Assembly (NCBI GenBank): GCA_002238665.1
Contig: MPMU01000018.1
Span: 1 to 35,513, forward strand
Source: Gammaproteobacteria bacterium bin55
GTDB taxonomy: Bacteria > Pseudomonadota > Gammaproteobacteria > Pseudomonadales > Azotimanducaceae
Direction of reading: 5' to 3'
DNA: 35,513 nucleotides
A program made the translations under genes and the position numbers. Shown here piece after piece: positions 14,808 to 34,383 of this stretch (its first letter is position 1; every line of letters begins with the position of its first letter). The notes under the pieces were generated by a model, which did not search any database, was not told the origin of the DNA, and saw only the letters and a list, made by a program, of their open reading frames with translations.

Positions 14808-15365
14808 TCACTGACTCAATTCAAGCAGTGACACTAACCTTTCAACGCCGTTCAGGTTCTCTACGATTTTGTTCGTGTAATCTCTTTCTTCTTCAGTCAC
14901 GATACCCAATAGATACACAACGTTATCTCTGACTACGACTTGCATTTTTCCGTGTGGTATTTCCGCGTGATTGAGAAAAGCTAGACGAACTCTGTTCTGG
15001 AGTATTCCGTCTCCTACCCTTGCTCCTATACCTGTCGCTTCTCCTACGACGAGCTCATTGTGAAGTGTTTTGATACCCACGATTTTGCTCAATAGAGCGG
15101 CTATATCAGACTTTTGCTCCTTTGTGGCAACATTTCCAGTAACAAGAACCACGCCATTTTGTATATATACATGGGTCTTGACGTCTGAATCGTCTTCGTA
15201 ATCTACTCCAAGTACCGACTGGATCACCTCTCGCAGATCTAAGTCTTGCGCTCTCGGGTCACGGTTTTGATCATTTGACAAGAATTGACATGCATTGAGA
15301 CCTAAAACCACGAAAGCCAGGCAACCAAACTGGCTCACTTTAACAATCCGAGCTTTGAGTTTCAA
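14808..15365 (-). CDS. BON-domain lipoprotein (OsmY/DolP-like)
   Basis: lipobox VLGLNAC; two BON-like modules (VYIQNGVVLVTGNVATKEQKSDI, VVRDNVVYLLGIVTEEERDYTNKIVENLNGVERL). Confidence 0.85.
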   Translation of the reverse strand: MKLKARIVKVSQFGCLAFVVLGLNACQFLSNDQNRDPRAQDLDLREVIQSVLGVDYEDDSDVKTHVYIQNGVVLVTGNVATKEQKSDIAALLSKIVGIKTLHNELVVGEATGIGARVGDGILQNRVRLAFLNHAEIPHGKMQVVVRDNVVYLLGIVTEEERDYTNKIVENLNGVERLVSLLELSQ

Positions 15366-17149: not shown

Positions 17150-18023
17150 GAGCAACGTAGGAAGCGATTCTCGGGGAACCTTGTACGTCGTGGCTACACC
17201 CATCGGTAATGCTCGAGATATATCATTAAGAGCGTTAGATGTCCTCGAGTCCATCAGCTATATGGCTTGTGAACACCCTCGTAGAACAAGGCTATTGTTG
17301 ACTAAACACAACATAACGCTTGAGAACAAGACTTTCATTCAATTGGCTGATGGCAGGGAAGCAAAACCTACAGATCGGATTCTGACTATTTTAGAGACAG
17401 GTAATGATGTAGCTCTTGTCTCTGACGCGGGTACACCGCTTATTTCAGACCCAGGTTTCCCACTGATTCAGGCAACCCATACTCGACAATACAGTGTTGT
17501 ACCAATCCCTGGTGCTTCTGCGGTGACAACACTTGCTTCGGTATGCCCCATTCCATTGAACTCGTTTCGTTTTATCGGATTCCTGGATGCTAATAGAAAG
17601 CACTTCAAAATGAAAATTAGTGAGTTGGTCAATTCGTCAGATCCCACCATTTTTTATGCCAGTCCCAAGGACATAACCAAGATTCTCCGTGCGATTGAGG
17701 AGGAAGGTTCTCGGCAGCGCACCATATTCTTAGGTCGCGAAATCACCAAGATGTTTGAATCCTTTGCCTTTGGCACTGTCGAGGAGCTTCTGTTAAGGTT
17801 CGATCAAGATCTCGAACAAAAAGGTGAATTTACTATGGTTGTTGAAGGTGCTCCGGATTCGCCAGCGAACATTCAGCTCCACACGTTATTGGATGAATTG
17901 ATGAAGACCAATTTACGCGATACGGATATTGCGCGAATCATTGGACGAATTTCGCCTCTAACTCGAAAAGTCATCTATGAGAGGATCCGAACACTTAAAC
18001 TAAAGAAATCTGACAAGGATTGA
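17148..18023 (+). CDS. rsmI: 16S rRNA (cytidine-1402-2'-O)-methyltransferase
   Basis: GTLYVVATPIGNARDISLRALDVL, VALVSDAGTPLISDPGFPLI, VPIPGASAVTTLAS, FLGREITKMFE, KGEFTMVVEG. Confidence 0.95.
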   Translation: MSNVGSDSRGTLYVVATPIGNARDISLRALDVLESISYMACEHPRRTRLLLTKHNITLENKTFIQLADGREAKPTDRILTILETGNDVALVSDAGTPLISDPGFPLIQATHTRQYSVVPIPGASAVTTLASVCPIPLNSFRFIGFLDANRKHFKMKISELVNSSDPTIFYASPKDITKILRAIEEEGSRQRTIFLGREITKMFESFAFGTVEELLLRFDQDLEQKGEFTMVVEGAPDSPANIQLHTLLDELMKTNLRDTDIARIIGRISPLTRKVIYERIRTLKLKKSDKD

Positions 18024-18367
18024 GTCAACCAGGCAATCGCTGGCTTGAATATCTGTTCGAGCTAGAGGAAAGTCCGGGCTCCTAGGACAAGGTGCCAGGT
18101 AATCCCTGGGGAGTGTGAACTCACGGAAAGTGCAACAGAAAACAAACCGCCTCACAGATTCTGTAGGGTAAGGGTGAAATGGTGTGGTAAGAGCACACCG
18201 CGATTGTGGTAACAGAATCGGCATGGTAAACCCCACTTGGAGCAAGGCTAAATAGGAGTTATATGGTGTGGTCCGCACCAACTCGGGTAGGCTGCGAGGA
18301 GATGCATGGTGACATGTATCCGAGATGAATGATTGCCCAAGACAGAACCCGGCTTATCGGTTGACTC
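18022..18367 (+). ncRNA. rnpB: RNase P RNA (bacterial type A)
   Basis: GAGGAAAGTCCGGGCTCC, GGTGCCAGGTAA...CCTGGGGAG, GAGATGCATGGTGAC, AGACAGAACCCGGCTTATCGG; terminal helix GAGTCAACC (18022-18030)/GGTTGACTC (18359-18367). Confidence 0.96.
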
Positions 18368-18907
18368 AATTCTCCTTGCTAGAAGCCGCTAGGAAGTATG
18401 TTCCGTAATCCAGGCTTTGTAGGTGCTTTAAAATTCGCGCCGCATCCTTGATCAGTTCACTCCTGAATTCTGGGTGTCTCAGATCTCTCAATTCAGTTTT
18501 CAAAGACTGTCGAATTGAATTACCATATTGTCAAAGACCTGTTTTCGCTTGAAGTGGCAGTAATAAATGCTGTTAGTGACTAACAAGATGGTTAGGGAGT
18601 GAAGCAGAAAACTTTTTAGTCGTAGTTTGAGTTGAGTCGCGAGCTACGGAGACTACGTTCAGGATGAACATGCCAACATGGAGTAGAAAGGCGCATCAGT
18701 TTTTCTTTCAATTTGCTTGTATAGTAAGACTAGAAAGAACAAGAAACCTGTGAACCCCCGCCAGTCCAGACTCGGTAGACATCAGTCAATATCTGTATTT
18801 TCCGTCTGACGTGGAATTCGCTCGTGAAAAAGGGAACTAAATCAACAAAATAACGGACTAAATTGCGCAAATCAATTCTGCACCAAGCTAGTAATTGGAG
18901 GAGACCC

Positions 18908-19813
18908 ATGGAACATCGACCAGTTATGGTTGAAGCGGTGATGTCTGGCTTGGTGTGGAACCCTCACGGTACCTACCTAGATGCAACGTTTGGGAGAGGA
19001 GGCCATGCCCAGTGTCTGCTTAACCTGATAGCCAAGGACGCGAAGCTCGTGGTATTGGATAGAGACCCTGAGGCGATCTGCTTTGCGCGTCATCTACGAG
19101 CATCTGAACCCAGAGTTCATGTCATTCAGGGGTGTTTTGGCGCTCTGTCAACTGCGATTTCGTCACATGGATTTGGCGGTTTTGACGGGATTCTCTTCGA
19201 TTGTGGGGTTTCTAGTCCACAGCTTGATGACGCGAGACGCGGATTCAGTTTTCAACAAACAGGCCAGCTCGACATGAGAATGGATCCTGAAACTGGAGTG
19301 AGTGCGGCCGAGTGGCTAAACAACGCTCCTGAGCGGGAAATTGCGGACGTAATCAAAGAATACGGCGGCGAACGGAATGCGAACGCTATTGCCAAGAGCA
19401 TCGTTCAACATCGACCACTAAAGTGCACCAATCAATTAAGCCAACTCATCATTGAAGCCTCGACGCATTTTGATTCGGGCAAGCATCCCGCGACCCGTAC
19501 CTTCCAGGCTGTTCGCATGAAAATCAACGATGAACTTGCGGAGTTAGATAAAGGTCTTTCTCAGGCATTCGAACTACTCAATGTGGGCGGTCGGATCGCA
19601 ACCCTGACATTCCACAGTCTCGAGCATCGACTTGTGCGACAAAAGTTCAGAGCACTCACACAATCGAATGTACCTAGAGGATTGCCTCTACAAGGTGACT
19701 TGAGTGGACCAGGAAGACTTGTGGTGAAGAAGGCAGTTCCCTCCTATTTGGAAACTGCTGAGAATCCTCGTTCTCGAAGTGCGATGTTGCAGATTATTGA
19801 GAAGGCTCGTTAA
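18908..19813 (+). CDS. rsmH: 16S rRNA (cytosine-1402-N4)-methyltransferase
   Basis: MEHRPVMVEAVMSGL, GTYLDATFGRGGHA, FDGILFDCGVSSPQLDDARRGFSFQQTGQLDMRMD, RTFQAVRMKINDEL, LTFHSLEHRLVRQKFR; start with upstream GGAGGAG. Confidence 0.96.
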   Translation: MEHRPVMVEAVMSGLVWNPHGTYLDATFGRGGHAQCLLNLIAKDAKLVVLDRDPEAICFARHLRASEPRVHVIQGCFGALSTAISSHGFGGFDGILFDCGVSSPQLDDARRGFSFQQTGQLDMRMDPETGVSAAEWLNNAPEREIADVIKEYGGERNANAIAKSIVQHRPLKCTNQLSQLIIEASTHFDSGKHPATRTFQAVRMKINDELAELDKGLSQAFELLNVGGRIATLTFHSLEHRLVRQKFRALTQSNVPRGLPLQGDLSGPGRLVVKKAVPSYLETAENPRSRSAMLQIIEKAR

Positions 19814-20000
19814 TAGACTTTACTAGCGTGTGCTAAGGTGGTTCGCTCCGGTGTATTACCACCTAACCCTTCTAGCTCCTGCATAGGTAGCATTTAAAAG
19901 TGCTGAGATCGACATGAGTTGCCAGGATCTTAAAAGCCTTGCATTTTCCACCAGGGCGCTCTTAACTGCTCGTCCCTGAGGACGGAACGCTTACGACATC

Positions 20001-20180
20001 TAAAGGGAGCGGATTGGATTAAACTACAGTTGTATGTTGACAAATCAATCTGCTTATCGCTTACTGTCCTGAATCGGCAGAAACAACGGGTCATTATTCT
20101 GGACTGGTTACAGTCTTATGCACACGATTGGTGTAGTGCAGGCGCTAAAGTGTCTATTTGTTCGGCAGTTGGTAATATGC
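20001..20180 (+). pseudogene. truncated, frameshifted copy of the nucleotidyltransferase module (5' flank plus N-terminus)
   Basis: taaagggagcggattggattaaactacagt...tgttgacaaatcaatctgcttatcgcttactgtcctg closely matches 21459..21635; reading frame from ATG 20034 stops after 12 codons and single-nt deletions are visible. Confidence 0.85.
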
Positions 20181-20233
20181 CGTTTGTGGCATGAATAGCC
20201 AGAAAACACATTAGGCCACTGTTATCCGACGAG

Positions 20234-21178
20234 GTGATTGTTACGAAACCAATGCATCATTTGCTCGGATGGGACCGAGCCAAGCAACCTGTGGTCATTC
20301 CGGATTGGTTGAAGGAATACGCTCGCAGTTGGTGCGAGGCTGGAGCAAAGAGCGTTTATCTATATGGTAGTAGGTCTAATGGTTATTACCTTCCTGATAG
20401 TGATTGGGATATCGCCGTAGTATACGAGAGTGAACGACTTAAAGCCGGTAGCTCCGGTCCAGATAGCCACACCCCGAGTTGGACAGAAATCAACGTCATT
20501 CAATTCACAGACGAAGAAATTCATAGCCGTGCACAGAAGCAACCTAATGTGGCCAGCGAAATCATTCAAAGCAAACTTATTGAAGGTGAAGAACTCTCTA
20601 TGCCACGAGCAAACCACATACCAGATAGAGACGAATTAAAAAGACATTTGGTGGTGGTATTTAATGCTTCCAAGAGCACATTGACTGGGATTAATGCAAG
20701 ATGGTTGTCTACCGACGTCTCAAATGAAGAATTGGATGATTTAGAAGACCATGACACTGAATCAACATCTGCACTTGCCGCCGAAAGATTGGTGAAAGCG
20801 CTCTGTTGCCTTTATGATCAGCCATATGAAAAGACACACAAAGTCTCTGAGTTTATAGAGATCTTACCCGATGACTATGCGGGTCATATTTCCAAAATGA
20901 ACGGCTCCACACATAAGTTAGGTATTAGTCCATATGAAGGCGGCCCTTTGGAATCCTGTCAGGACTCCCTCAATCGAATTATCTATACGTTAAATCTGCT
21001 TGATAAGGTGGTAAAACAAGGCGACTTGGAATTGACCCAAGAAGAGCGTCGATATATTCAGAAGGAATATAGAGTGGGGGCGAGGAAATATGCGGACTTA
21101 ACGGAGGAAGAAACGCACCCCGACATAGTTCAGACTATCTTTCGAATGGATGGAACTATCGAAGGCTTGAGCAACTAG
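20234..21178 (+). CDS. MNT-type nucleotidyltransferase fused to HEPN-like C-terminal domain, copy 1
   Basis: SVYLYGSRSNGYYLPDSDWDIAVVYE (GSxxxG...DSDxD NTase motif); SALAAERLVKALCCLYDQPYEKTHKVSEFIEILP resembles HEPN helices; paralogue of 21492..22427. Confidence 0.8.
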   Translation: MIVTKPMHHLLGWDRAKQPVVIPDWLKEYARSWCEAGAKSVYLYGSRSNGYYLPDSDWDIAVVYESERLKAGSSGPDSHTPSWTEINVIQFTDEEIHSRAQKQPNVASEIIQSKLIEGEELSMPRANHIPDRDELKRHLVVVFNASKSTLTGINARWLSTDVSNEELDDLEDHDTESTSALAAERLVKALCCLYDQPYEKTHKVSEFIEILPDDYAGHISKMNGSTHKLGISPYEGGPLESCQDSLNRIIYTLNLLDKVVKQGDLELTQEERRYIQKEYRVGARKYADLTEEETHPDIVQTIFRMDGTIEGLSN

Positions 21179-21201
21179 CTGCAGCATGGCATTCACACAC
21201 C

Positions 21202-21237
21202 TGAACCGAGCGGTAAAGGCGGACGATTCGATTAAAA
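21202..21237 (+). repeat. 36-bp exact repeat downstream of NTase copy 1 (partner at 22451-22486)
   Basis: tgaaccgagcggtaaaggcggacgattcgattaaaa, embedded in a longer similar 3' flank. Confidence 0.95.
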
Positions 21238-21491
21238 GGTACAGTGCGACAACCGGGACTCCAACCTGGATCCACCGTCTGGTGTTCTAAGGCAAGGGAT
21301 TTTCCGAGCCTGTGTCTAAGCAAGTTTTGGCCTTTGCAAAAACTCTTATTCGCGCTTATATGAACGAGTCGGATACTGGGATTTCGCGCTACTTGTTGGA
21401 AGATTTTGAGAAAATGCCCAATGACGATGCGAAAATTATGAGGAACGCTGACGACATCTAAAGGGAGTGGATTGGATTAAACTACAGTTCT

Positions 21492-22427
21492 ATGTTGACA
21501 CATAAATCGCCTTATCGCTTACTGTCCTGGGATCGACAGAAACAACCGGTCATTATTCCAGACTGGTTACAGACTTATGCACACGATTGGTGTAATGCAG
21601 GCGCTAAAAGTGTCTATTTGTTCGGCAGTCGGTCCAATGGTTTCTATTTGCCTGATAGTGACTGGGACATTGCTATTGTGCATGAGAGTGAGGAAGTTCA
21701 AAACGCTATTCGTTCTACCCATGTCCGTCTGTCAATACAAGAAGAAATCAATGAAATTCACAAAACCGCCGAAGATATTTGTCGGCAGGCACAAAAGCAG
21801 CCAAACATTGCCAGTGAGATTATTCGTAGCAGATTAATCGAAGGAGACCCTCTCAGTTTTCCAAGAAGGAAACATTATTCTGATCGAGAAGAATTAAAAC
21901 GTCATTTGGCGGAAACGTTCATGACTGTTACGAGTACGCTGATAGGAATTAATGCGCAATGGAAGGTGAATGAGAAAGAGCTAGAAGATCTAGCGGATAC
22001 CCACACAGAATCGCAGTCTGCATATGCGGCTGAAAGGTTGGTAAAAGGGTTGTGCTGCATTTATGAGCAACCATACGAAATGGTGCATAACATCACCGAA
22101 TTTATTCCGCTCCTCCCTGAAGGCTATGAGTCTGATATTGTCAAAATGAACGGCACAACGGGAGATCTCCATGTGAGTCCATACCTCAACCCGCCTATGG
22201 AGTCTTGCCAGAATTCTCTAAATCGTCTCAACTATACGTTAGATCTATTTGACAAGATGGTGGCAGAGGGAGATGTTAAGTTGAGACATGAAGAGCTAGC
22301 ATATATTCAGAATCAGCACTCCGTGCGAACCAGTCTGTGGTGGGAGCTACCAGAGGAAGAAATGCATCCTGACGTTGCTGCGGTTAAAGTTCGCCTGGAT
22401 AGGACTATTGAAAGCTTGAGCAACTAG
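21492..22427 (+). CDS. MNT-type nucleotidyltransferase fused to HEPN-like C-terminal domain, copy 2
   Basis: SVYLFGSRSNGFYLPDSDWDIAIVHE; SAYAAERLVKGLCCIYEQPYEMVHNITEFIPLLP; alignable along its full length with copy 1. Confidence 0.8.
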   Translation: MLTHKSPYRLLSWDRQKQPVIIPDWLQTYAHDWCNAGAKSVYLFGSRSNGFYLPDSDWDIAIVHESEEVQNAIRSTHVRLSIQEEINEIHKTAEDICRQAQKQPNIASEIIRSRLIEGDPLSFPRRKHYSDREELKRHLAETFMTVTSTLIGINAQWKVNEKELEDLADTHTESQSAYAAERLVKGLCCIYEQPYEMVHNITEFIPLLPEGYESDIVKMNGTTGDLHVSPYLNPPMESCQNSLNRLNYTLDLFDKMVAEGDVKLRHEELAYIQNQHSVRTSLWWELPEEEMHPDVAAVKVRLDRTIESLSN

Positions 22428-22450
22428 CTGTAGCATGACATTCGCACACT

Positions 22451-22486
22451 TGAACCGAGCGGTAAAGGCGGACGATTCGATTAAAA
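22451..22486 (+). repeat. 36-bp exact repeat downstream of NTase copy 2 (partner at 21202-21237)
   Basis: tgaaccgagcggtaaaggcggacgattcgattaaaa. Confidence 0.95.
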
Positions 22487-22586
22487 ACATAAAGTGCGAC
22501 AACCACAACGCCAACCTGGATTCGTCGGTTGACGATTCTCGGCTAAGCACTGGCTAAATCTACTGCCTAAGTGGGAATCTCGTTCA

Positions 22587-24005
22587 TTGCTCCTAAGAGA
22601 ATTATTTGAACGACAAGATCTTCCATCTGTTGAAGTGCTCGGACTGAGCAATGACTCGCGACAGGTCGTAGCCGGCGATTGTTTTTTTGCCTATAAAGGT
22701 CAGTCCTCGGATGGTAATTGCTTTGTCCAGGAAGCAATCGAAAAAGGCGCGGTCGCAATATGTACTGATTCAAAATCCGACCTAAACGGTGCGGTTCCGA
22801 AAATTTATGTGAGGAATCTCGCACAGGAGCAAAGTGAAATCGCCGGTCGTTTTTTTGACCACCCAAGTCGTTCGATTCGTTGTGTTGGCGTGACCGGGAC
22901 CAATGGCAAAACCAGCATCGCCTACGGACTCTCAACTCTTCTACATGATTCTGGGTTTGGAGGATCTGTAGGATGGGGTAGACCTCCTAGGTTAAACAAG
23001 ACATCTCTGACAACCGTTGATGCAATTTCTTTCCAAGCAGGACTTAGTAATTTTGTAAATTGTGGACTAAAACATGCCATTCTCGAAGTATCTTCCCACG
23101 CGCTACATCAGAGTAGAGTTGACGGCGTGCGATTTGAAGTTGGAATCTTCTCGAATTTGACGAGAGATCATTTGGATTACCACGGCGATATGCGAGAATA
23201 TGGGCGATGTAAGAGTCTCCTGTTTAAACGACCTGAATTGAAACTTGGCATCGTCAATATTGATGATCCGTTTGGCGCAGAAATCCAACACATTTTGAAG
23301 CAAAACGAAACTCCCCTCTTAACTTATGGTAGATCTCCATCTGCCAATGTCTCTTGGCGAGAATTACGTTGGGAGTCTGATCGAGTATTTGGTGAGTGGT
23401 GCACCCCCTGGGGTAGCTTCGATTTTGAATTGCCGGTTTTATCAGAGTTTTCTGTCGCTAACTGTGCCGCAATATTCGCATGTATGCACCATTTTGGCGC
23501 GGATGCAAGAGACACAACCTTTAGTATGAGGGATTTACAAACGCCGCCTGGTCGAATGGAACGCTTGAACCATCCGTCTGGTGCCCGTGCGATCCTAGAC
23601 TTTGCACACACGCCTGATGCCTTGCAAAACGTATTAAGTGCTGTAAAGCCCACCGTGAGCGGAAAACTCATATGTGTCTTTGGGTGTGGTGGTGATCGAG
23701 ATCAAGGAAAACGCAGTCTTATGGGAAAGATTGCCGAGAAATTTGCGGACTTTTCGGTGATTACTTCAGATAATCCGAGATTTGAAGAGCCGAATAAGAT
23801 AATTGACGACATCGTAGAGGGATTTTCACATCGAAAACGGTATAGAGTGGAATCAGACAGAGCTGCGGCGATTGCTTTTGCTATGAACATGGCGACGAAG
23901 GACGACTTAATCGTCATAGCAGGTAAAGGCTCAGAACAGTTTATGGAAATAGAAGGGCAACGTATACCCTTCAATGACCGCGATAGTTTCATGGAGAACA
24001 CGTAG
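22587..24005 (+). CDS. murE: UDP-MurNAc-L-Ala-D-Glu:meso-diaminopimelate ligase
   Basis: VGVTGTNGKTSIAYGL, EVSSHALHQSRVDGVRFEVGIFSNLTRDHLDYHGDMREY, VITSDNPRFEEP (DNPR meso-DAP motif), FGCGGDRDQGKR; TTG start. Confidence 0.94.
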   Translation: MLLRELFERQDLPSVEVLGLSNDSRQVVAGDCFFAYKGQSSDGNCFVQEAIEKGAVAICTDSKSDLNGAVPKIYVRNLAQEQSEIAGRFFDHPSRSIRCVGVTGTNGKTSIAYGLSTLLHDSGFGGSVGWGRPPRLNKTSLTTVDAISFQAGLSNFVNCGLKHAILEVSSHALHQSRVDGVRFEVGIFSNLTRDHLDYHGDMREYGRCKSLLFKRPELKLGIVNIDDPFGAEIQHILKQNETPLLTYGRSPSANVSWRELRWESDRVFGEWCTPWGSFDFELPVLSEFSVANCAAIFACMHHFGADARDTTFSMRDLQTPPGRMERLNHPSGARAILDFAHTPDALQNVLSAVKPTVSGKLICVFGCGGDRDQGKRSLMGKIAEKFADFSVITSDNPRFEEPNKIIDDIVEGFSHRKRYRVESDRAAAIAFAMNMATKDDLIVIAGKGSEQFMEIEGQRIPFNDRDSFMENT

Positions 24006-24015
24006 GTAGGCACAT

Positions 24016-25098
24016 ATGCTCACTTGGTTAACGGATTACCTGAGCCAGTACATATCGTTTTTTAACGTATTTCAGTACATCACATTTCGGTCGGCGGTAA
24101 GCGCTGCCACCGCACTGATTATTTCCATCTGCATTGGCCCAACCATCATTCGGTTATTGCAGCAGAATCAGATTGGTGCGGTCATTCGAACGGATGGTCC
24201 TGAGACTCACCTTGCGAAATCTGGGACACCCACCATGGGTGGTATTCTGATCCTCATAGCTATTTTTGCTTCCACACTATTATGGGGGGACCTCACGAAT
24301 AAGAACGTATTGGTCGTGCTATTTGTGCTTCTAGGTTTTGGTTTTGTCGGTTGGCTAGATGACTATTTGAAGGTCATCAAGAAGAACAGCAAGGGCTTAA
24401 CGGCAGGCAAAAAATACACTCTACAGAGTATCTTTGGTCTTGGTGTAGCCGTGTATCTGTTCTTTACCGCAGAGTCTCCAGCATCATTGAATTACATTAT
24501 TCCTTTTGTAAAGAACATCGCCATTCCTCTGGGATTTGGTTACATCGTCATTACGTATCTAATGGTGGTCGGCATGAGCAACAGTGTCAATTTCACTGAT
24601 GGGCTTGACGGCTTGGCAATCTTGCCTGTGGTTTTGGTCGGTGGCGCGTTAGGGTTAATTGGCTATCTAGTTGGCCACAGTGAGTTTGCGAATTACCTGC
24701 AAATTCCTCATATTGCCGATATGGGTGAGGTAGCTGTGTTATGTGGGGCGATTGTTGGTGCGGGATTGGGATTCTTATGGTTCAACGCATATCCAGCAAG
24801 TGTCATGATGGGCGATGTCGGAGCGCTTTCACTAGGTGCAGCTCTCGGTTTAATTGGTGTTTTGGTACGACATGAAATCGTACTCCTGATCATGGGTGGG
24901 TTATTTGTACTGGAGACCCTTTCTGTAATGGCACAGGTAGCAAATTTCAAGCTCTTTGGTAAGCGGATACTGCGCATGGCACCCTTACACCACCATTTCG
25001 AAATGAAGGGATGGCCGGAGTCGCACGTCATCATTCGATTCTGGATTTTCTCGGTCATGTTTGTAATGATCGGCTTGTCCACATTGAAACTACGCTAG
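24016..25098 (+). CDS. mraY: phospho-MurNAc-pentapeptide transferase
   Basis: [87 protein letters not shown]. Confidence 0.97.
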
Positions 25099-25111
25099 TC
25101 TCGAGGTAGGA

Positions 25112-26446
25112 GTGCCTGCCAGCACTACGGTCTTAATCTGTGGTCTAGGTATAACAGGCCAGTCCATAGTTCGCTATTTAGCGAGTGAAGCTAATTTGCT
25201 GGTAACAGATACGAGACTTGAAACGAGTCCTGAAATCGCGCGCATAGCGGAGCAATTGAGTTCCAAGAGTGATCAATTAAAGGTCGTAAAGGTGTCAGAA
25301 CTTGCGACGCATTGGGCCGAAATCACCGAAATGTATGTAAGCCCTGGTCTACCACTCTCACACGAGATCGTTCAAAAAGCACTGGAAGAAGACATTCCGG
25401 TTCGCGGTGACATAGATCTCTTCCTCGACCATGTAGATAAACCAGTACTAGCCATAACTGGCACCAACGGCAAGACTACGGTTGTTTCCTTAATTACCGA
25501 GTTACTTGCATCCCGCGGATTTATCTCTGTTGGAAATATTGGAACTCCTGTACTCGACGGCTTGCAAAGAAGAGCGTCCGGTTTTGTGTTGGAACTGTCT
25601 AGTTTCCAACTTGAGCGTCTCAAGAGTCCAAGTTTTAAGGTAGCTACTTGTCTAAATGTCACCGCAGACCATTTAGATCACCACGCTTCTTTTGACGAAT
25701 ATCTCAATGCGAAGCGAAGAATTTACGAGAACTGCGAGATGGTGATTTACAACGCAAAAGATGAACTGACGGTACCCCAGAATACCGTTGGAAGGCAGTC
25801 TATTGCCATCAATGACGATCCGAAATGGCGCGTGGAGTCAGGTGGTGTGGTTATTTCAGGCGAATTCGTGCCAGCGAGCGAATTTAGTTTGACAGGAGAA
25901 CACAATCTGTATAACATCGTGGTTTCGGCGGCGTTTGCGCATCACATGGGAGTTTCTCTTGAAGAAATGTTGCCGGTCTTACGGTCTTTTAAGGGCTTAC
26001 CACACCGACAGCAACTCATCAAGGTAGACAGTGGAGTTACTTTGATTGATGATTCCAAATCCACCAATGTCGCCTCGACGGTGGTAGCAATTCAGGCATT
26101 CAACTGTGCAAGAAGACCGCTCGTGCTTTTATTAGGAGGTGATAGCAAAGGTGTGGACCTTGCTCCATTGACGAACGCCACGCTTACTACGGACCATGTG
26201 GTGCTTTACGGTCAAGATGCCTATCGATTCAAGGAGATTATGGATTCAACTATGGTAGTACACATGGCTAAGACATTTGAGCACGCGATTCGAACTTCGA
26301 TCGAGTGCGCTGGTTCTGAAGGGACAATCTTGTTCTCTCCTGCATGTGCGAGTTTCGACATGTTCTCAAACTATGTCGAACGCGGTAGGTCTTTTTGCGC
26401 CATTGCTAGACGCTTACTAGATCCAACAACAAGAGATTGCCACTGA
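25112..26446 (+). CDS. murD: UDP-N-acetylmuramoylalanine--D-glutamate ligase
   Basis: VLICGLGITGQSIVRYLA, LAITGTNGKTTVVSLI, NIGTPVLD, ELSSFQLERL, LNVTADHLDHHASFDEYLNAKRRI; GTG start. Confidence 0.96.
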   Translation: MPASTTVLICGLGITGQSIVRYLASEANLLVTDTRLETSPEIARIAEQLSSKSDQLKVVKVSELATHWAEITEMYVSPGLPLSHEIVQKALEEDIPVRGDIDLFLDHVDKPVLAITGTNGKTTVVSLITELLASRGFISVGNIGTPVLDGLQRRASGFVLELSSFQLERLKSPSFKVATCLNVTADHLDHHASFDEYLNAKRRIYENCEMVIYNAKDELTVPQNTVGRQSIAINDDPKWRVESGGVVISGEFVPASEFSLTGEHNLYNIVVSAAFAHHMGVSLEEMLPVLRSFKGLPHRQQLIKVDSGVTLIDDSKSTNVASTVVAIQAFNCARRPLVLLLGGDSKGVDLAPLTNATLTTDHVVLYGQDAYRFKEIMDSTMVVHMAKTFEHAIRTSIECAGSEGTILFSPACASFDMFSNYVERGRSFCAIARRLLDPTTRDCH

Positions 26447-27855
26447 TGTCTGTAGTGTACCCCATGCGCCATGTTCGGCACATTCATCTGATAGGTATCG
26501 GAGGTAGTGGAATGTGTGGGATTGCAGAAGTCTTGATTAACCAAGGCTATCACGTCAGTGGTTCAGATCTCCAACAATCACAGAGTACGCGCAGGTTGCG
26601 TCAGCTCGGTATTCAGGTATTTAATGAACATGCCGCCGAAAACGTTCAGAATGCTGATGTAGTGGTAATTTCGAGCGCAATCTCAAACGAAAACGTGGAA
26701 TTGGTATCTGCTCACGAGCATCTAGTTCCAGTCATTAACCGGGCGGAGATGCTCGGTGAATTAATGCGGCATCGGTATGGTATAGCGGTTGCTGGTACAC
26801 ACGGTAAAACGACAACCACTAGCTTGATCACCAGCATCTTTCAGAGTGCGGGTCTAGATCCCACCTATGTAATCGGTGGTCTATTGAAAAGTGAAGACAG
26901 AAATGCTGGGTTAGGACTTAGCAAGTACATTATCGCGGAAGCGGATGAGAGCGACGCATCCTTTCTCTACCTAAAACCCATGCTTGCGGTGATTACCAAC
27001 ATTGATCAAGACCACATGTCTACATATGACCACGATGTTGAGTTATTGTCATCCACATTTGAAGAATTCATCACGCGATTGCCGTTCTACGGTGCGGTCG
27101 TAGTCTGCATCGACGATGAAGGGATTCAACAGATAGCTTCTCGCATCACCCGTCCACTCCTGACGTACGGGTACAATGAATCCGCAGACTTTCGAGCGAT
27201 TAATCTAGATACCTCTAAACAGACTTGGAGATATACCTGTCTCCGACCTGGAGGGTTAGCCCCATTAGATATAGAGCTCAATCTTCCTGGAAACCAAAAT
27301 GTGCTAAATTCGTTAGCTGCCATCGCTACAGCGACCGACGAGCGCATCGACGATAGATTCATAGTAGAGGGGCTCGCGAATTTTCACGGAGTGGGACGTC
27401 GTTTTGAAATTTCAGAGGTCCAGCTTGCTGGTCACACATTCACGATGGTGGATGACTACGGGCACCATCCAACAGAAATCTCATATGTGGTAGAAACGGC
27501 AAATCTCCTGTGGCCAGATCGCAAAGTTGCTATGGTTTATCAGCCTCATCGATACACCCGGACGAGAGACTTATTTCATGACTTTGTCGATGTCCTTGGT
27601 CGAGTCGACAGATTGATTTTGTTAGAGACGTATGGGGCGGGTGAAAGTCCTATAGATGGTGCAAACGTTTGTGACCTGGCGAAATTTATCAGAGAGTTTC
27701 ACGGCAAAGAGGTGGCAATTTGTGAAGACTCAACACAAGCACTTCAGACACTAGAGAAGAATCTTGAAATGAATGATCTCATACTGGTACAGGGGGCAGG
27801 TAGCGTAAGCGAAGTCTCAGAATTACTCAAATCTCCGATGATAAGTCCGGCGTAG
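26446..27855 (+). CDS. murC: UDP-N-acetylmuramate--L-alanine ligase
   Basis: HIHLIGIGGSGMCGIAEVLINQGYHVSGSD, GIAVAGTHGKTTTTSLI, AEADESDASFLYLKP, VDDYGHHPTEI, YQPHRYTRTRDL; ATG overlaps the murD stop (TGATG). Confidence 0.96.
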   Translation: MSVVYPMRHVRHIHLIGIGGSGMCGIAEVLINQGYHVSGSDLQQSQSTRRLRQLGIQVFNEHAAENVQNADVVVISSAISNENVELVSAHEHLVPVINRAEMLGELMRHRYGIAVAGTHGKTTTTSLITSIFQSAGLDPTYVIGGLLKSEDRNAGLGLSKYIIAEADESDASFLYLKPMLAVITNIDQDHMSTYDHDVELLSSTFEEFITRLPFYGAVVVCIDDEGIQQIASRITRPLLTYGYNESADFRAINLDTSKQTWRYTCLRPGGLAPLDIELNLPGNQNVLNSLAAIATATDERIDDRFIVEGLANFHGVGRRFEISEVQLAGHTFTMVDDYGHHPTEISYVVETANLLWPDRKVAMVYQPHRYTRTRDLFHDFVDVLGRVDRLILLETYGAGESPIDGANVCDLAKFIREFHGKEVAICEDSTQALQTLEKNLEMNDLILVQGAGSVSEVSELLKSPMISPA

Positions 27856-28008
27856 CGAATTAAATTCTCAATGGTCAGAAAACCGACTACACGAATCCCG
27901 TTCCATAGTGGTCTGATTCCGCCTGACTATTAAAATGTTAATTACATTCCTAGGTCGTATGCTTGTTAGACAGGAAGTCGTTCAACATGATCCACCAAGA
28001 GGGTTAAC

Positions 28009-29208
28009 ATGCCTCCAGAATCATTCTCACCGTCATTCAGCGTCCAATTCGATAGCGACGAAAAGAAGCCATTAAAACGGGTCGAAAAAGACCTTCACAT
28101 ACAAGTCATTGGTGTTGGTGGAGGTGGCGGTAGCATCATTGCAGAGTGTTCTGAAGCCAATCTAGAGGGAGTCAATCTGTGGGCAGCAAATACTGATTCA
28201 CAAGCGCTCGAACGATTGAATGATCTAGATATCAATACTCTGAACCTTGGTAAGGAACGGACCGAGGGCGCTGGTGGAAATCCAGAGATTGGCGCACAAC
28301 TAGCTGCAGAATCGACATTTGAAATACTGCAGATACTCGAGAACACACGCCTACTTTTTGTAGTTGCTTGTATGGGTGGTGGAACTGGTACCGGTGCTGC
28401 TCCAGTGATCGCGCGTTGTGGTAAAGAAGCAGGCATCCTGACTGTTGGTATCGTTACTCGTCCTCGAGAACTGGAACAACGCGGCAAACGTGCTGAAGAA
28501 GGTATTCAGGAATTACGTAACAACTGCCATGCGTTAATGGTTTTCCCAAACGATAACGCATTTCCTCCGGAAGAGGATTTAGATTGGAAGACTGCGGTTG
28601 GAAACATCAACCAACGGCTAGTCCAGTCTATTCAAGTCATCTGTGACATGCTATTTGAGATTGGTGTGATAAATCGCGACTTCAAAGATCTTGAGACTTG
28701 TATTCCACTGAATAGTAAGAAAGCGCTGGATTTATATATTGGTATCGCGGAGGCCAGCGGAACTAATCGGCGAGAACTCATTAAAGAACAGATTCTGGAT
28801 GTGTCTTTGCATGAATTGTCACTCCATAAGTTGGCCTTTGCACACATTATTAACTTCACGTCGAACAACCAATCAGGAGAAAGCCCCAAAGACTCTGAAA
28901 TGACAGAATTGGTCAATACCATTAAAGGTACTGGTGACCAGGATACGGAACAATACATCGGACTTTATGAAAGCGATCAAGTGCCAGAGGGATCTCTTCG
29001 TGTCTCGGTCATAATGCCGATGCGTAGTGATGAAGAAGCTAGTACTGTGACTACTACGCCAGATGAGATCTTTAGTTCGGTACCCCCCTCAAGACTTCGC
29101 GCAGTTGAGCCTGAAGAACAGGATGAGGATGACGTAGACTGGGGTGAGATTACCCAGGCAATGCTTGACGCAGACACGCAAGACACGCAAGGTCGAGTTG
29201 ACAACTGA
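28009..29208 (+). CDS. ftsZ: divergent cell division protein FtsZ
   Basis: IQVIGVGGGGGSII, AANTDSQAL, ACMGGGTGTGAAPVIA (tubulin signature), T7-loop-like NRDFKDL; atypical N-terminus and C-terminus. Confidence 0.85.
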   Translation: MPPESFSPSFSVQFDSDEKKPLKRVEKDLHIQVIGVGGGGGSIIAECSEANLEGVNLWAANTDSQALERLNDLDINTLNLGKERTEGAGGNPEIGAQLAAESTFEILQILENTRLLFVVACMGGGTGTGAAPVIARCGKEAGILTVGIVTRPRELEQRGKRAEEGIQELRNNCHALMVFPNDNAFPPEEDLDWKTAVGNINQRLVQSIQVICDMLFEIGVINRDFKDLETCIPLNSKKALDLYIGIAEASGTNRRELIKEQILDVSLHELSLHKLAFAHIINFTSNNQSGESPKDSEMTELVNTIKGTGDQDTEQYIGLYESDQVPEGSLRVSVIMPMRSDEEASTVTTTPDEIFSSVPPSRLRAVEPEEQDEDDVDWGEITQAMLDADTQDTQGRVDN

Positions 29209-29327
29209 CCAATGTCAGCACGACTCTAGTTTCGGTAGAACCTTCTCTCAAGAATTAATGTGCTGTGGTGGTCGCTACAGCGAGACAAATTCTGAGTAAT
29301 CATATTATGCGTAGGTCAAAGACGAAG

Positions 29328-29937
29328 CTCATTTGCATAAGCATGTATTTTTGGTTTAAAACTCATGTTGTTTCAATGGGTTAGGAAGACCTAATTAACA
29401 GTCCGTCAATTCACTCACCAGGACGGTTAGCATTTGACCTGCTTGATTTTGAGCAAGCCATGGATTGCCTTGGAAGGCAGTGACTCGCAAAAGGCGGCTC
29501 AAGGTTCGGAATCAAAAAGTTGGAAAAGAACGGACTGGTTCTCAGTGTGGTAGCACCCGTTCGATCAAGTTCGGTCAAGATGCACATGTCCAACAATGCT
29601 ATCGATGTGTCGTTCGTAATGAAAGTGGTTGTAGTAAAGCCTATAAGGTATCGACCGGCACCGAAATAAGTGGCATGAATCAACCGAATCAATGGGACCC
29701 ATTCATGGTGGCAATGTACAAAAAAGGATATCGGGCCATCAAGGAGACGCAGGTAACTGGGGATTTCCAGGTCAACACCGACCAACGGTAAGGCTTTGGC
29801 GACACCGGATACTACCTGCATTGGCGCCGCGCGAAATGCAGGTCTCGAGTGGTGTCGTGGAGGCGTATGACATACACATCCGAGAAAGTTTCAAATGCTC
29901 TAAAGAGAGGAAGCGAAGTAATCCACTAGTGGTTTGA
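29328..29937 (+). pseudogene. decayed IS1595-family transposase, left copy (5' part only)
   Basis: zinc-ribbon CGSTRSIKFGQDAHVQQCYRCVVRNESGCSKAYKVSTGTE; after a frameshift LWRHRILPALAPREMQVSSGVVEAYDIHIRESFKCSKERKR resembles WRHRIL...GxVEADETYFxESFKGS; DNA similar to the right copy. Confidence 0.75.
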
Positions 29938-30013
29938 CCTATAATGATTGATGAGGAAACAATTAACTCTCACGTAAGTTAGCCTGAATATTTTCAACCT
30001 GGAGAAACTCCCA

Positions 30014-30661
30014 ATGGACAGTCAAATATTAAAAAAGTGCATAAAGAAAGCGTTTGAAGAAACAAAAACAGATGTAAAACATAAAACAGTTAAAAATGAA
30101 GAAAAATCAGGTAGATTTAAACAAAGGGTAAGTGAGTATATTTATAAAGAGTTATATAGTAAAGATGAGTATCATCTAAACGTGATCAATACAAAATTTG
30201 GTGAAGATAACGAACCAGGTGAATGGTTATTAGATGCCTGTATTACTGATGTGGACCCTAAAACTGACAGTCGCCCGGTAAAGAGAATATTTTTTGCGAT
30301 GGAATGCGAGAGTCAGACGGCTTATAGTGAGTTCAATCAAGATTTCGCAAAGTTAGTTCACATCAAAGCTGACCATAAACTTTATTTGCAGGGTCTAAAC
30401 CAAAAGACAACAAAAGGAGTTTGTGACCACATTGGAAAGAAATTGGAAAATTCTTGTAGTTGGCTAAAAGACACAAATTCGCTGACGGAAAGTAGTGAAG
30501 AATTCTACATGGCATTTTGGCCCTCACCAGAAAAGAAAGAGGGATCTTCGATCTGGGATCAATTTGACGGTACGTTTAAACACTTAGATCGGATCCGTTT
30601 ATTTCGATTTGTGTATTCTGAGGGGAATGTTACATTCAAAGAGATAAACCAAAATGGATAG
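30014..30661 (+). CDS. hypothetical protein, AT-rich/Lys-rich orphan
   Basis: 215 aa ORF with SD-like GGAG upstream (ctGGAGaaactcccaATG); no family confidently recognised. Confidence 0.65.
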   Translation: MDSQILKKCIKKAFEETKTDVKHKTVKNEEKSGRFKQRVSEYIYKELYSKDEYHLNVINTKFGEDNEPGEWLLDACITDVDPKTDSRPVKRIFFAMECESQTAYSEFNQDFAKLVHIKADHKLYLQGLNQKTTKGVCDHIGKKLENSCSWLKDTNSLTESSEEFYMAFWPSPEKKEGSSIWDQFDGTFKHLDRIRLFRFVYSEGNVTFKEINQNG

Positions 30662-30734
30662 GTTGCTCTTTTGCAGTTACATGCGTTTAGTAATTTCGTA
30701 AAAAGAGGTGCCATTTTCGAGGAGTTCGCGACTT

Positions 30735-31747
30735 GATTTAGCATGCCAACTCAGGTAACGTAGTAGATAGGTTGTCGACACTTCTTGAGCGTGTTCGTTC
30801 ACGAAAAATTTCATGATCTGCTGACATGTGCAAGACGCAGTTGCTGAGTTTTGTTGGTGTATTTAGCCACAGGTAGAGTGACTTTTCTTTGTTCCTCATT
30901 TCGATGTGCTGAACGTTGTTATAGAACGTAGCCCGTCGATAGTTTGAGCGTCGTTACGAGCACAGCACAGTTGCTTCTTTAATACTTTGTTACAGGCCTG
31001 TTTCATTTGCGTCAATGTTGCCTATGGGCGGTATTACTGCGCTAGACGTACAATCGCAGTGAACACTACGAAGTGTCCATTGGAAAATTCACCTTTTGCT
31101 CTCACTCGGTCGGCGCGGTTCTTGAGCCACGGGTGGCATATTTCTCTTCCACCCTCGCGAGCCTTTGCGCGTATCTCGGAACTAGGTCTCATCCGCCTTG
31201 AAGACTCCGTTCAAGATCGTCGTTTCACACTCCGCCAATGCACGTAGGAACCGATGTCGTTAACGCCATGACGTCCTTCGGTTGATCGGGACTTCCTCAG
31301 ATTCATGTAGCTTGTTGAAGGATTGATATTCTTTGGAAACCGTTACCTTGAATTGTCCGCATGGGTCCCCTCGCATCATGCCACGGAATGTGGCACCGGT
31401 CAGATCCGTATAGGTTCTACCACAACCATTCTCATCACTGACGACACATCGATAGCGTTGTTGGTCATGTGCATCTTGACCGGGCTTGTTCAAGTGGGTG
31501 CTACCACAATGAGGAAAGGTCTGTTCTTTTTCTACTTTATGATTCCGAATTTCGAGGCTCCTTTCTTAGATTCATTGTCGTCCAAGATCACGTATAGCTC
31601 ACTCTAGTTCAAACAGATCGGATGCGGTGAAATCCGAGGATTGGATCGTTTTGATCAGTGAATTGATAGACTCGTTATTGGGTCGTCTTAATCCATTGAA
31701 ACTACTTGAATTTCAAACCAACAAACATGATTGTCTAAATGGGCTGC
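30735..31747 (-). pseudogene. decayed IS1595-family transposase, right copy (inverted relative to left)
   Basis: on minus strand: CGSTHLNKPGQDAHDQQRYRCVVSDENGCGRTYTDLTGATFRG, then LNGVFKADET*FRDTRKGSREGWKRN, and near the end VSTTYLLRYLSWHAK; multiple stops/frameshifts. Confidence 0.75.
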
Positions 31748-31901
31748 TCAGATTCTCTTTGTGTGCAACACTTTAAGCTTGGTTGATGTATCCTTTGCCA
31801 TAGGAGGCATCATTTCTGAGTGAGACCACACTATGAAACATCAAACGTTCATCAACGACTGAAATTTAGTTTCACCCCCACAACTAAAGTAGCAATCAAC
31901 A

Positions 31902-33386
31902 GTGAATAGAAGACGATTTAGTCTCTCTAAAACTAGGTTCATGAATGGCCAACAGTGCCACTTACGTCTCTGGTATGATGTGCATAACAGACGTCTCTCG
32001 GCACCGATAGACGAAGTCACTCAAGCAAGATTTAACGTAGGACATGAGGTTGGTCAATTGGCTTGCCAGCTCTACGCCAAAGGAAAACCGGTCGAATCAG
32101 ACCCTAGAGACTTCAACGAAGCAGCCAATGAAACGCAGCTACTTCTAGCTGATCAATCTGTCTCGGCAATATTCGAAGCAACGTTCAAATTTAATGGAGT
32201 TCAGTGCTCCGTCGATATTCTCGAAAAACTGTCTGATGGTTCGTACCACTTGATCGAGGTCAAGTCAGCGACAAAATCAAAGCCTGTTTATGTGCTAGAT
32301 GCCGCCGTTCAATACTGGATCTTGACAGGGTGTGGATTTGAGGTGACCAAGGTCAGTGTTATGACATTTAACTCCGACTATGTCAAAGGCCCGAGACTCA
32401 GTATTTGTTCGCTGTTCAAACTCCACCCTTGCTTAACTGAAGTCATCCGGCTCCAGGCAGAAGTTAACTCCAACGTGTTGACTATGCAACGAATGCTTGC
32501 GGGAGAAAGTCCACCGAAGATCTCCACCGGGTTTCAATGCACGGACCCTTACCCTTGTCCTTATTTCGAGCATTGCAGTCAAGATGATCCCGTCTACGAT
32601 CACCCAATTTCAGAGCTTGGACCAACCCAACTTCCAATACTAGAGGAGCTACATCTCCTGGATATCAAGGAAATCCGAGATATTCCATCCAGCATCAAAT
32701 TGAATGTTCGCCAACAAGCCATTGTGGATTCAATCAAATCCGATTGTTCGATGGTGGGAAATAATCTACGTACCGAACTGAGGCAACTTAAAAATCCGAT
32801 CTATCACTTGGATTTCGAAACCGTTTCTCACGCGATTCCACAGTACATTGGAACAAAACCCTTCCAAGCTGTTCCGTTCATGTTCTCTGTGCTCACGGAG
32901 CAATCAGATGGAGAACCAATATATAGAGGTTACCTTCACCAAACGGCAGATGACCCAAGACGCGAAGTCGCCTTGCATCTCATCGAGACATTAGGAAGAA
33001 GTGGGTCAATTTGTGTCTACTCCGCCTTTGAAACCAGAGTCATTAACCACTTGATTGACGCGCTTCCTGATTTAGCTTGTGATTTGCGTCCAATTCAGGA
33101 ACGGCTCTTCGATCTCCTAAATATTGTTAAGAATCACGTCTACCATCCCAACTTTAGGGGATCCTTCAGTCTTAAAAATGTGCTACCAGCATTGACAGAG
33201 GTAGATTACCTAGATCTGGAAATTGACGAAGGGCAATTGGCTTCGTTCCGCTACCTGCAAGCACTTACAACAGCAGACGCCACTGAACGAGAATCAATAT
33301 TCGACGATCTTATAGCTTATTGTGATAGAGATACACTCGCTACGTTTAAGGTCAAACAAGCACTTGAGAGTCTTGTTGAGAAGTGA
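31902..33386 (+). CDS. DUF2779-type protein: Cas4/RecB-like PD-(D/E)XK nuclease domain plus DnaQ/RNase H-like C-terminal domain
   Basis: LSKTRFMNGQQCHLRLWYD, CSVDILEKLSDGSYHLIEVKSATK (PD-(D/E)XK-like), Cys cluster CTDPYPCPYFEHC, YHLDFETVSHAIPQYIGTKPFQAVPFMFSVL, IAYCDRDTLATFKV. Confidence 0.82.
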   Translation: MNRRRFSLSKTRFMNGQQCHLRLWYDVHNRRLSAPIDEVTQARFNVGHEVGQLACQLYAKGKPVESDPRDFNEAANETQLLLADQSVSAIFEATFKFNGVQCSVDILEKLSDGSYHLIEVKSATKSKPVYVLDAAVQYWILTGCGFEVTKVSVMTFNSDYVKGPRLSICSLFKLHPCLTEVIRLQAEVNSNVLTMQRMLAGESPPKISTGFQCTDPYPCPYFEHCSQDDPVYDHPISELGPTQLPILEELHLLDIKEIRDIPSSIKLNVRQQAIVDSIKSDCSMVGNNLRTELRQLKNPIYHLDFETVSHAIPQYIGTKPFQAVPFMFSVLTEQSDGEPIYRGYLHQTADDPRREVALHLIETLGRSGSICVYSAFETRVINHLIDALPDLACDLRPIQERLFDLLNIVKNHVYHPNFRGSFSLKNVLPALTEVDYLDLEIDEGQLASFRYLQALTTADATERESIFDDLIAYCDRDTLATFKVKQALESLVEK

Positions 33387-33486
33387 TTGCTGTAACAATT
33401 TGATACAGAAATCCACAGCGGAAATTCAGTTTTCTGTATTACACTGATTCTAGTTTTGACACGAATGTGTTCAACTAGGAAGTACC

Positions 33487-34383
33487 ATGCAGTTGTATCA
33501 AAATACCATCCAAGACGAGTTGTTGATCGAAGGAGAAGGGTTGCATACTGGTCAATCCTGTCGATTAGCTATACGACCTGCACCTGTTAATACTGGGATT
33601 CTTTTTCACAAACAAGCAGGTGACGCGGAAATACAGATTCCTGCTATTGCAACAAATGTCGTGAGCACTAGCTTTGCGACTACGTTGGGGTTGGATGATT
33701 CACCTGAAATGTCCATTTCAACCGTTGAACATCTGATGGCCGCAATACAGGGGTTAGGGATCGACAACCTGTATTGCTATGTGAGTGGACCAGAAATTCC
33801 GATGTTGGACGGATGTTCTCAGCGGTTCGTTGAGTGCTTGGGAGAAATAGGAATTCTTGCACAGGATGAGTTTAAAAAGGTCCTGAGAATTAAGGAAACT
33901 GTGTGTTGCGCAGATGGGGATGCCTGGGCGATTCTCAAACCGCATGATTCGTTTCGATTGAATGTCCAGATAGATTACGAGCACAGTAGTTTTCAAGACC
34001 CGATGGTGTGTCACGCATCATTCGACAATGCAGAACATTCGTTTATCGACGAGATCAGTCAGGCCCGTACCTTTGGGTTCCGTAGAGATTACTTGGATTT
34101 GCTTGAAGCCGGATATGCACAAGGCATCAAAGAGAAATCAAGTGCCGTATTGATCTATGAGAAGCATTGCCTGGCTGAAGGTGCTGAGCTACGATATCCA
34201 AATGAAGCCGCTAGACACAAAATTCTCGATGCACTTGGTGATCTCGCTCTGACGGGATTTGGTAGCATATTAGGATCGTATACAGGCTATAAAGCTGGTC
34301 ATACCCTGAACAATCGCCTAGCTAGAAAGTTGCTCGCGCAACCACACTGTTTCGAAGAAACTTACCTATCAGATTTAAACTAG
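33487..34383 (+). CDS. lpxC: UDP-3-O-acyl-N-acetylglucosamine deacetylase
   Basis: GEGLHTGQ, ISTVEHLMAAIQGLGIDNL, EIPMLDGCSQRFVE, ISQARTFGFRRD, RHKILDALGDLALTG, YKAGHTLNNRLARKLL. Confidence 0.96.
   Translation: MQLYQNTIQDELLIEGEGLHTGQSCRLAIRPAPVNTGILFHKQAGDAEIQIPAIATNVVSTSFATTLGLDDSPEMSISTVEHLMAAIQGLGIDNLYCYVSGPEIPMLDGCSQRFVECLGEIGILAQDEFKKVLRIKETVCCADGDAWAILKPHDSFRLNVQIDYEHSSFQDPMVCHASFDNAEHSFIDEISQARTFGFRRDYLDLLEAGYAQGIKEKSSAVLIYEKHCLAEGAELRYPNEAARHKILDALGDLALTGFGSILGSYTGYKAGHTLNNRLARKLLAQPHCFEETYLSDLN

Follow-up and report, generated by a model that had tools for sequence, protein, structure and literature searches.

Probable selective loss of the septal peptidoglycan module in a gammaproteobacterium that retains FtsZ and peptidoglycan synthesis

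How much of its divisome can a walled bacterium dispense with while keeping FtsZ? In Proteobacteria, septal wall synthesis is considered to require the FtsW-FtsI synthase pair together with FtsQ, FtsL and FtsB (FtsQLB), which also count as antibiotic targets. Division with FtsZ but without FtsW and FtsI is already known. In Clostridioides difficile, a class A penicillin-binding protein (PBP) is the main septal synthase, no functional FtsW/FtsI pair, FtsA or FtsN is present, and FtsL, FtsQ and FtsB are dispensable for vegetative growth (PMC10693644). Most members of Wolbachia supergroups B-D are without FtsL, FtsB, FtsI, FtsW and FtsN, and RodA-PBP2 has been proposed to build their septum (PMC10591338, Table 2). 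Here, we analyze the division and cell wall (dcw) gene cluster on a 35,513-nucleotide stretch of DNA, the window, which is contig C49 (MPMU01000018.1) of Gammaproteobacteria bacterium bin55, a member of the Azotimanducaceae in the order Pseudomonadales. The sample is a single metagenome-assembled genome (MAG; G000) of 2.93 Mb recovered in 183 contigs, with a completeness of 87.8% and a contamination of 0.08%. We compared the region gene by gene with its equivalent in genus mates and in other families of the same order, and searched the bin genome-wide, comparing the FtsQ profile across 15 genus mates and FtsB across 22 relatives.

The retained genes had been predicted to follow the order rsmH-murE-mraY-murD-murC-ftsZ-lpxC, and NCBIfam models confirm both identities and order, all on the plus strand: rsmH (mraW; 18863..19813; TIGR00006, 1.2e-89), murE (22587..24005; TIGR01085, 2e-137), mraY (24016..25098; TIGR00445, 2.1e-123), murD (25112..26446; TIGR01087, 2e-109), murC (likely 26464..27855; TIGR01082, 4.5e-155), a divergent ftsZ (28009..29208; TIGR00065, 1.9e-61) and lpxC (33487..34383; TIGR00325, 2.4e-72). 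None of ftsL, ftsI, murF, ftsW, murG, murB, ddl, ftsQ, ftsA and mraZ lies between them, so that the predicted absence of ten genes is true of the interval. These absences are, however, of two classes. In the genus mates the cluster reads rsmH-ftsL-ftsI-murE-mraY-murD-ftsW-murC-ftsQ-ftsA-ftsZ where the contig covers it; murF, murG and ddl lie outside it throughout the genus, the present genome included, and in the outgroup G016, too, murB is located outside. The gene that heads the cluster, mraZ, is present in the outgroups and was not found in the loci of the genus mates. What is missing in this genome only are ftsL, ftsI, ftsW, ftsQ and ftsA, all five of which are in the cluster of a further close species (L083). 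The cluster thus differs from the canonical gammaproteobacterial dcw type, whose order is conserved among the retained genes, by the lack of these five, and departs in the same way from the type of its own genus, with which it shares the placement of murF, murG and ddl. A genus- or family-wide loss of the divisome was rejected, as these genes persist in the genus mates and in the nearest named relatives wherever a contig spans the cluster; apparent gene gaps in the loci of several relatives, mostly Pseudomonas, are ascribed to greedy picking of open reading frames (ORFs).

As had been claimed, murE and mraY are separated by 10 bp (24006..24015, where murF is absent genus-wide) and mraY and murD by 13 bp, whereas the claimed overlap of murD and murC hinges on a TTG start at 26437, from which the longest ORF runs. 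The conserved MRHV start of MurC is an ATG at 26464, leaving a gap of 17 bp (26447..26463), and with either start there is no space for ftsW, whose slot this is in the genus mates. Their ftsQ-ftsA slot corresponds to a murC-ftsZ joint of 153 bp (27856..28008) from which both genes are gone, and synteny and tblastn place 2.77 kb of accessory DNA (19814..22586) in the slot of ftsL and ftsI, likewise both gone. Pseudogene remnants were ruled out, tblastn with the relatives' proteins as queries having returned none of FtsL, FtsI, FtsW, FtsQ and FtsA in the window.

Have the missing genes simply moved? Split dcw clusters are known from Acinetobacter, and for part of the set a move, which the original prediction had offered as one possibility, is what we find: murF is encoded on C4, murG on C106, ddl on C93 and murB on C13, likewise outside the cluster in the genus mates. 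With MurB, MurC, MurD, MurE, MurF, MurG, MraY and Ddl all encoded, the precursor pathway is therefore not modified, broken lipid II synthesis was rejected, and judged from the genes, lipid II synthesis looks intact as far as tested. The same genome-wide check that found these genes along with ftsK, mreB and rodA did not find ftsI, ftsW, ftsL, ftsQ or ftsA, and an intact second cluster was looked for and not found within the bin, which is about 88% complete. Its only class B PBP is PBP2 (638 bits against a cut-off of 455), the other transpeptidase being PBP1A, and its only SEDS protein is RodA (378 bits against a cut-off of 337), compared with two SEDS proteins in every genus mate; genome-wide, the bin thus holds RodA and PBP2 only and no FtsW-FtsI septal synthase pair. 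The genes for PBP2 and RodA lie side by side on C105, and their reading as a relocated FtsI-FtsW pair was rejected, as they score as MrdA-RodA and are found beside rlpA and dacA. The FtsA profile matches only MreB, while the genus mates match as FtsA. FtsQ gives no match genome-wide and is positive in all 15 genus mates. FtsB reaches only a chance 15 bits, while none of the 22 relatives scores below 61 bits. FtsL is not found either, which is by itself a weaker test, since the incomplete genus mates G001 and G012 yielded none as well. An FtsB-like match on C68 (E 0.05) and an FtsL-like match on C126 (E 0.008) were rejected as chance, lying within frames of 293 and 571 codons, respectively.

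The losses extend beyond the window. The relatives share the order tilS-pyrG-kdsA-eno-ftsB-truD, and contig C181 has the same order with ftsB excised, eno and truD being 8 bp apart and tilS-pyrG-kdsA as well as the far side syntenic. At another locus, the relatives carry aroB, then a single-pass SPOR protein of 184-193 amino acids, then hslV-hslU; in our genome aroB and hslVU are present on C92, and the 1.86-kb interval between aroB and hslV (L200, 4102-5964) contains no SPOR ORF. No gene is recognisable in this interval. We name the missing SPOR protein FtsN-like, and not DamX, solely from its single-pass topology, its size and the adjacent hslV. The genome has two SPOR proteins, compared with three in most genus mates, and a DedD-type SPOR gene still occupies its syntenic position at another locus. 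As the losses are found at three unlinked places with both neighbours on the same contig, contig ends cannot have produced them. On this sequence evidence, FtsA, FtsQ, FtsL, FtsB, FtsW, FtsI and the FtsN-like SPOR protein have very probably been lost from the lineage. With 2.93 Mb recovered, the genome falls into the span of 1.5-3.8 Mb seen in the genus, so that general genome erosion does not account for this loss. The original prediction of a modified division or peptidoglycan system thus holds for division, from which seven genes are gone, five of them not found in the bin and two, ftsB and the ftsN-like gene, absent from the loci where relatives carry them, and not for the precursor pathway; the comparison of synteny with related genomes that it had called for shows the five fts genes present in the cluster of the genus mates and absent here.

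What has been retained? Held against the canonical essential divisome of E. coli, the genome lacks FtsQLB, FtsA and FtsN, and has FtsZ, FtsK, FtsE and FtsX (FtsEX) as well as ZipA, which scores weakly and adjoins smc. Also kept is mreB, followed by two genes whose size and character fit mreC and mreD, identified as such by position, and PBP1A and PBP2 have their catalytic motifs. LpoA, the outer-membrane activator of PBP1A, is encoded in the window itself (lpoA, 15362..17254, minus strand; Pfam LppC, 1.6e-49). FtsZ retains the GGGTGTG GTP motif and the NxDxxD T7 loop, with residues invariant in an alignment of 31 sequences, and its AlphaFold model shows a confident FtsZ core (mean pLDDT 80) that matches a solved FtsZ at 4.5e-33. 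A scan of the contigs with a single FtsZ protein returned no match. The C-terminal peptide through which FtsZ binds FtsA and ZipA (DIPAFLRxQAD) is not recognisable in the alignment, the tail ending in WGEITQAMLDADTQDTQGRVDN. In trees of the same genomes, the end branch of this FtsZ measures 2.62 changes per site, compared with 0.76 for five concatenated cluster proteins, whereas the outgroups G016-G021 have FtsZ end branches of 0.14-0.38 and of 0.45-0.61 for the five proteins. A subclade of G005, G009, G015 and L083 likewise has a long FtsZ stem (1.82). In the alignment, the C-terminal peptide is also missing in G001, G005, G009 and G015; among these four, the search for ZipA was negative in three and gave no better than E 0.02 in the other. 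The same four genomes (FtsZ loci L063, L067, L071 and L076) keep FtsA, FtsQ, FtsW and other divisome genes where covered. From the sequence and the model, the FtsZ of our genome is likely still functional, and its GTP-binding and T7-loop residues and predicted fold, together with the retention of FtsK, FtsEX, ZipA and DedD, argue that Z-ring-dependent division still operates.

With the genes of the septal wall module gone, the lineage must divide in another way. The best explanation overall, and one we consider reasonably probable, is a selective loss of the septal peptidoglycan module with FtsZ and peptidoglycan synthesis kept. In such a scenario, a minimal Z-ring tethered by ZipA would mark the division site, assisted by FtsEX, FtsK and DedD, and the wall would grow inward by the remaining synthases, PBP1A-LpoA and/or RodA-PBP2 with MreBCD. 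Septation by PBP1A and/or RodA-PBP2 is made credible by the precedents of C. difficile and Wolbachia supergroups B-D, and our analysis leans slightly in its favor. The loss of FtsA and other partners may further have freed FtsZ from constraints, and part of the great length of its branch would then be explained. Only tentatively do we advance the complete picture, in which a single lineage of walled gammaproteobacteria with an unreduced genome has removed exactly FtsA-FtsQLB-FtsWI-FtsN, and an FtsA-independent FtsZ ring without the C-terminal peptide drives PBP1A and/or RodA-PBP2.

Could septal division instead have been largely abandoned, in favor of long, filamentous or polyploid cells, or of budding or fragmentation, with FtsZ a relic or in another role, a state resembling that reported for the giant Candidatus Thiomargarita magnifica? 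The loss of the complete septal module beside an intact elongation machinery would fit, as would the extreme divergence of FtsZ. Against it, FtsZ preserves the invariant residues of its GTP-binding site and T7 loop and a predicted fold that is intact, and FtsK, FtsEX, ZipA and DedD are kept; we regard this as unlikely. A different objection is that the seven genes were relocated to a replicon or contigs outside the bin, which is, after all, incomplete, and murF, murG and ddl show that cluster genes do move in this group. For this, the missing 12% would have to contain all seven genes, which come from three unlinked loci, although the other genes sought from the genus set (murB-G, ddl, ftsK, ftsE, ftsX, zipA, mreB, mrdA, rodA and PBP1A) turned up without exception. 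Assuming independence, the chance would be about 0.12^7 (about 4 in 10 million), and for a joint move in one block about 12%, with the unlikely gathering of divisome genes only still to be added. We therefore hold relocation to be improbable, the residual risk being that the genes moved together to a replicon outside the bin.

Equally improbable in our view is that the missing proteins were replaced by unrelated ones or have diverged beyond recognition. New genes do occupy the ftsL-ftsI slot and the ftsZ-lpxC interval, so that a nucleotidyltransferase pair or orphan ORFs might be thought to substitute, but the inserted pair resembles MNT-type antitoxin nucleotidyltransferases and not wall enzymes, no class B PBP or SEDS protein exists besides PBP2 and RodA, and the eno-truD joint is without any insert. 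As for a misassembly or chimeric bin, a single MAG in so many fragments invites the suspicion, which the near absence of contamination, intact flanking genes at each joint and the functional agreement of losses on three separate contigs make very hard to sustain. In addition, a tree of five cluster proteins places the window firmly inside the genus (support 100), and the GC content is even, at 0.46-0.47, over the window and other contigs.

Several points weigh against selective loss of the septal module with continued Z-ring division. The evidence comes from one incomplete MAG, with no second genome showing the same losses, and the searches could have missed diverged copies of FtsL, FtsQ, FtsB and FtsN elsewhere, all four being short and quick to evolve; this caveat does not apply to FtsI, FtsW and FtsA. 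The frame of PBP1A runs off a contig end. The acceleration of FtsZ seems partly to predate the losses, and ZipA is kept although FtsZ is without a recognisable ZipA-binding peptide, which weakens the step in which ZipA acts as tether.

Compared with the known systems, it is the combination that is unusual. Wolbachia supergroups B-D likewise keep FtsZ, FtsK, MreB, PBP2 and RodA and are in most members without FtsW, FtsI, FtsL, FtsB and FtsN, but they retain FtsA and FtsQ, neither of which is found here, and lack ZipA, FtsEX and class A PBPs, where our genome keeps ZipA, FtsEX, PBP1A and MreCD. Moreover, Wolbachia is an obligate intracellular alphaproteobacterium, whereas ours is a gammaproteobacterium with a genome no smaller than is normal for its genus. 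C. difficile shares the absence of a functional FtsW/FtsI pair, FtsA and FtsN and the presence of a class A PBP, but is Gram-positive and still encodes FtsL, FtsQ and FtsB, as well as SpoVD and SpoVE for sporulation, while in our Gram-negative genome the whole module is absent. Within the Gammaproteobacteria, the giant Candidatus Thiomargarita magnifica is reported to have elongation genes and FtsZ with several core divisome genes missing; it is also said to be without ZipA and FtsEX and to have a far larger genome. Buchnera of Lachninae aphids and Babela massiliensis kept FtsZ and lost most of the divisome (PMC10591338, PMC4378268), but have small genomes, kept FtsA and lost peptidoglycan synthases or the wall, while our genome retains the wall pathway and has lost FtsA. 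Planctomycetes and Chlamydiae, with their deviant divisomes, present the reverse case, having lost FtsZ while many keep FtsI and FtsW (PMC12283558).

A walled gammaproteobacterium seemingly without FtsWI, FtsQLB, FtsA and FtsN, free of general genome reduction and with sister species that keep the standard set, offers a natural comparison for the minimal needs of septation, for the takeover by elongation or class A synthases, and for the parts of FtsZ that its partners constrain. If our interpretation is true, FtsWI-independent septation has evolved naturally within the class of E. coli, in a lineage whose close relatives keep the canonical machine.

Upstream of murE, in exactly the position of ftsL-ftsI in the genus mates, lies a tandem pair of MNT-like nucleotidyltransferase genes on the plus strand (copy 1, 20234..21178, Pfam NTP_transf_2, 3.9e-7; copy 2, 21492..22427, Pfam Polbeta, 2.1e-9), 56% identical to each other and with duplicated flanking DNA; the C-terminal half may be HEPN-like, and the pair is possibly a self-contained toxin-antitoxin relative. 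The ftsZ-lpxC interval of about 4.3 kb holds four orphan ORFs without a Pfam match (29411-29821 on the minus strand; 30014-30661, 30987-31247 and 31323-31607 on the plus strand) and a gene for a DUF2779/RecB-like nuclease with weak similarity to Cas4 (31902..33386, plus strand; Pfam PF11074, 7.6e-33). Neither the nucleotidyltransferase pair nor the genes at 29411-33386 have a match in the dcw stretches of the genus mates. With an E. coli query, MinD was found neither in this genome nor in five genus mates, where only weak matches to other ATPases were obtained; it is present in two other families of the order. A literature search for sponge symbionts with divisome loss yielded nothing usable. 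Named relatives include MAGs with the isolate codes COS, RHO, CLI and SB, and a study of sponge MAGs sampled Coscinoderma, Rhopaloeides, Cliona and Ircinia (PMC8163846), from which we infer that the codes denote sponge hosts and that the group is known mainly from marine sponge samples. The surroundings of the cluster are those usual for gammaproteobacteria, with cytochrome b, lpoA, an rsmI-like methylase and the RNase P RNA (rnpB, 18021..18372, plus strand; Rfam RF00010, 320.7 bits), a usual neighbour of the cluster.

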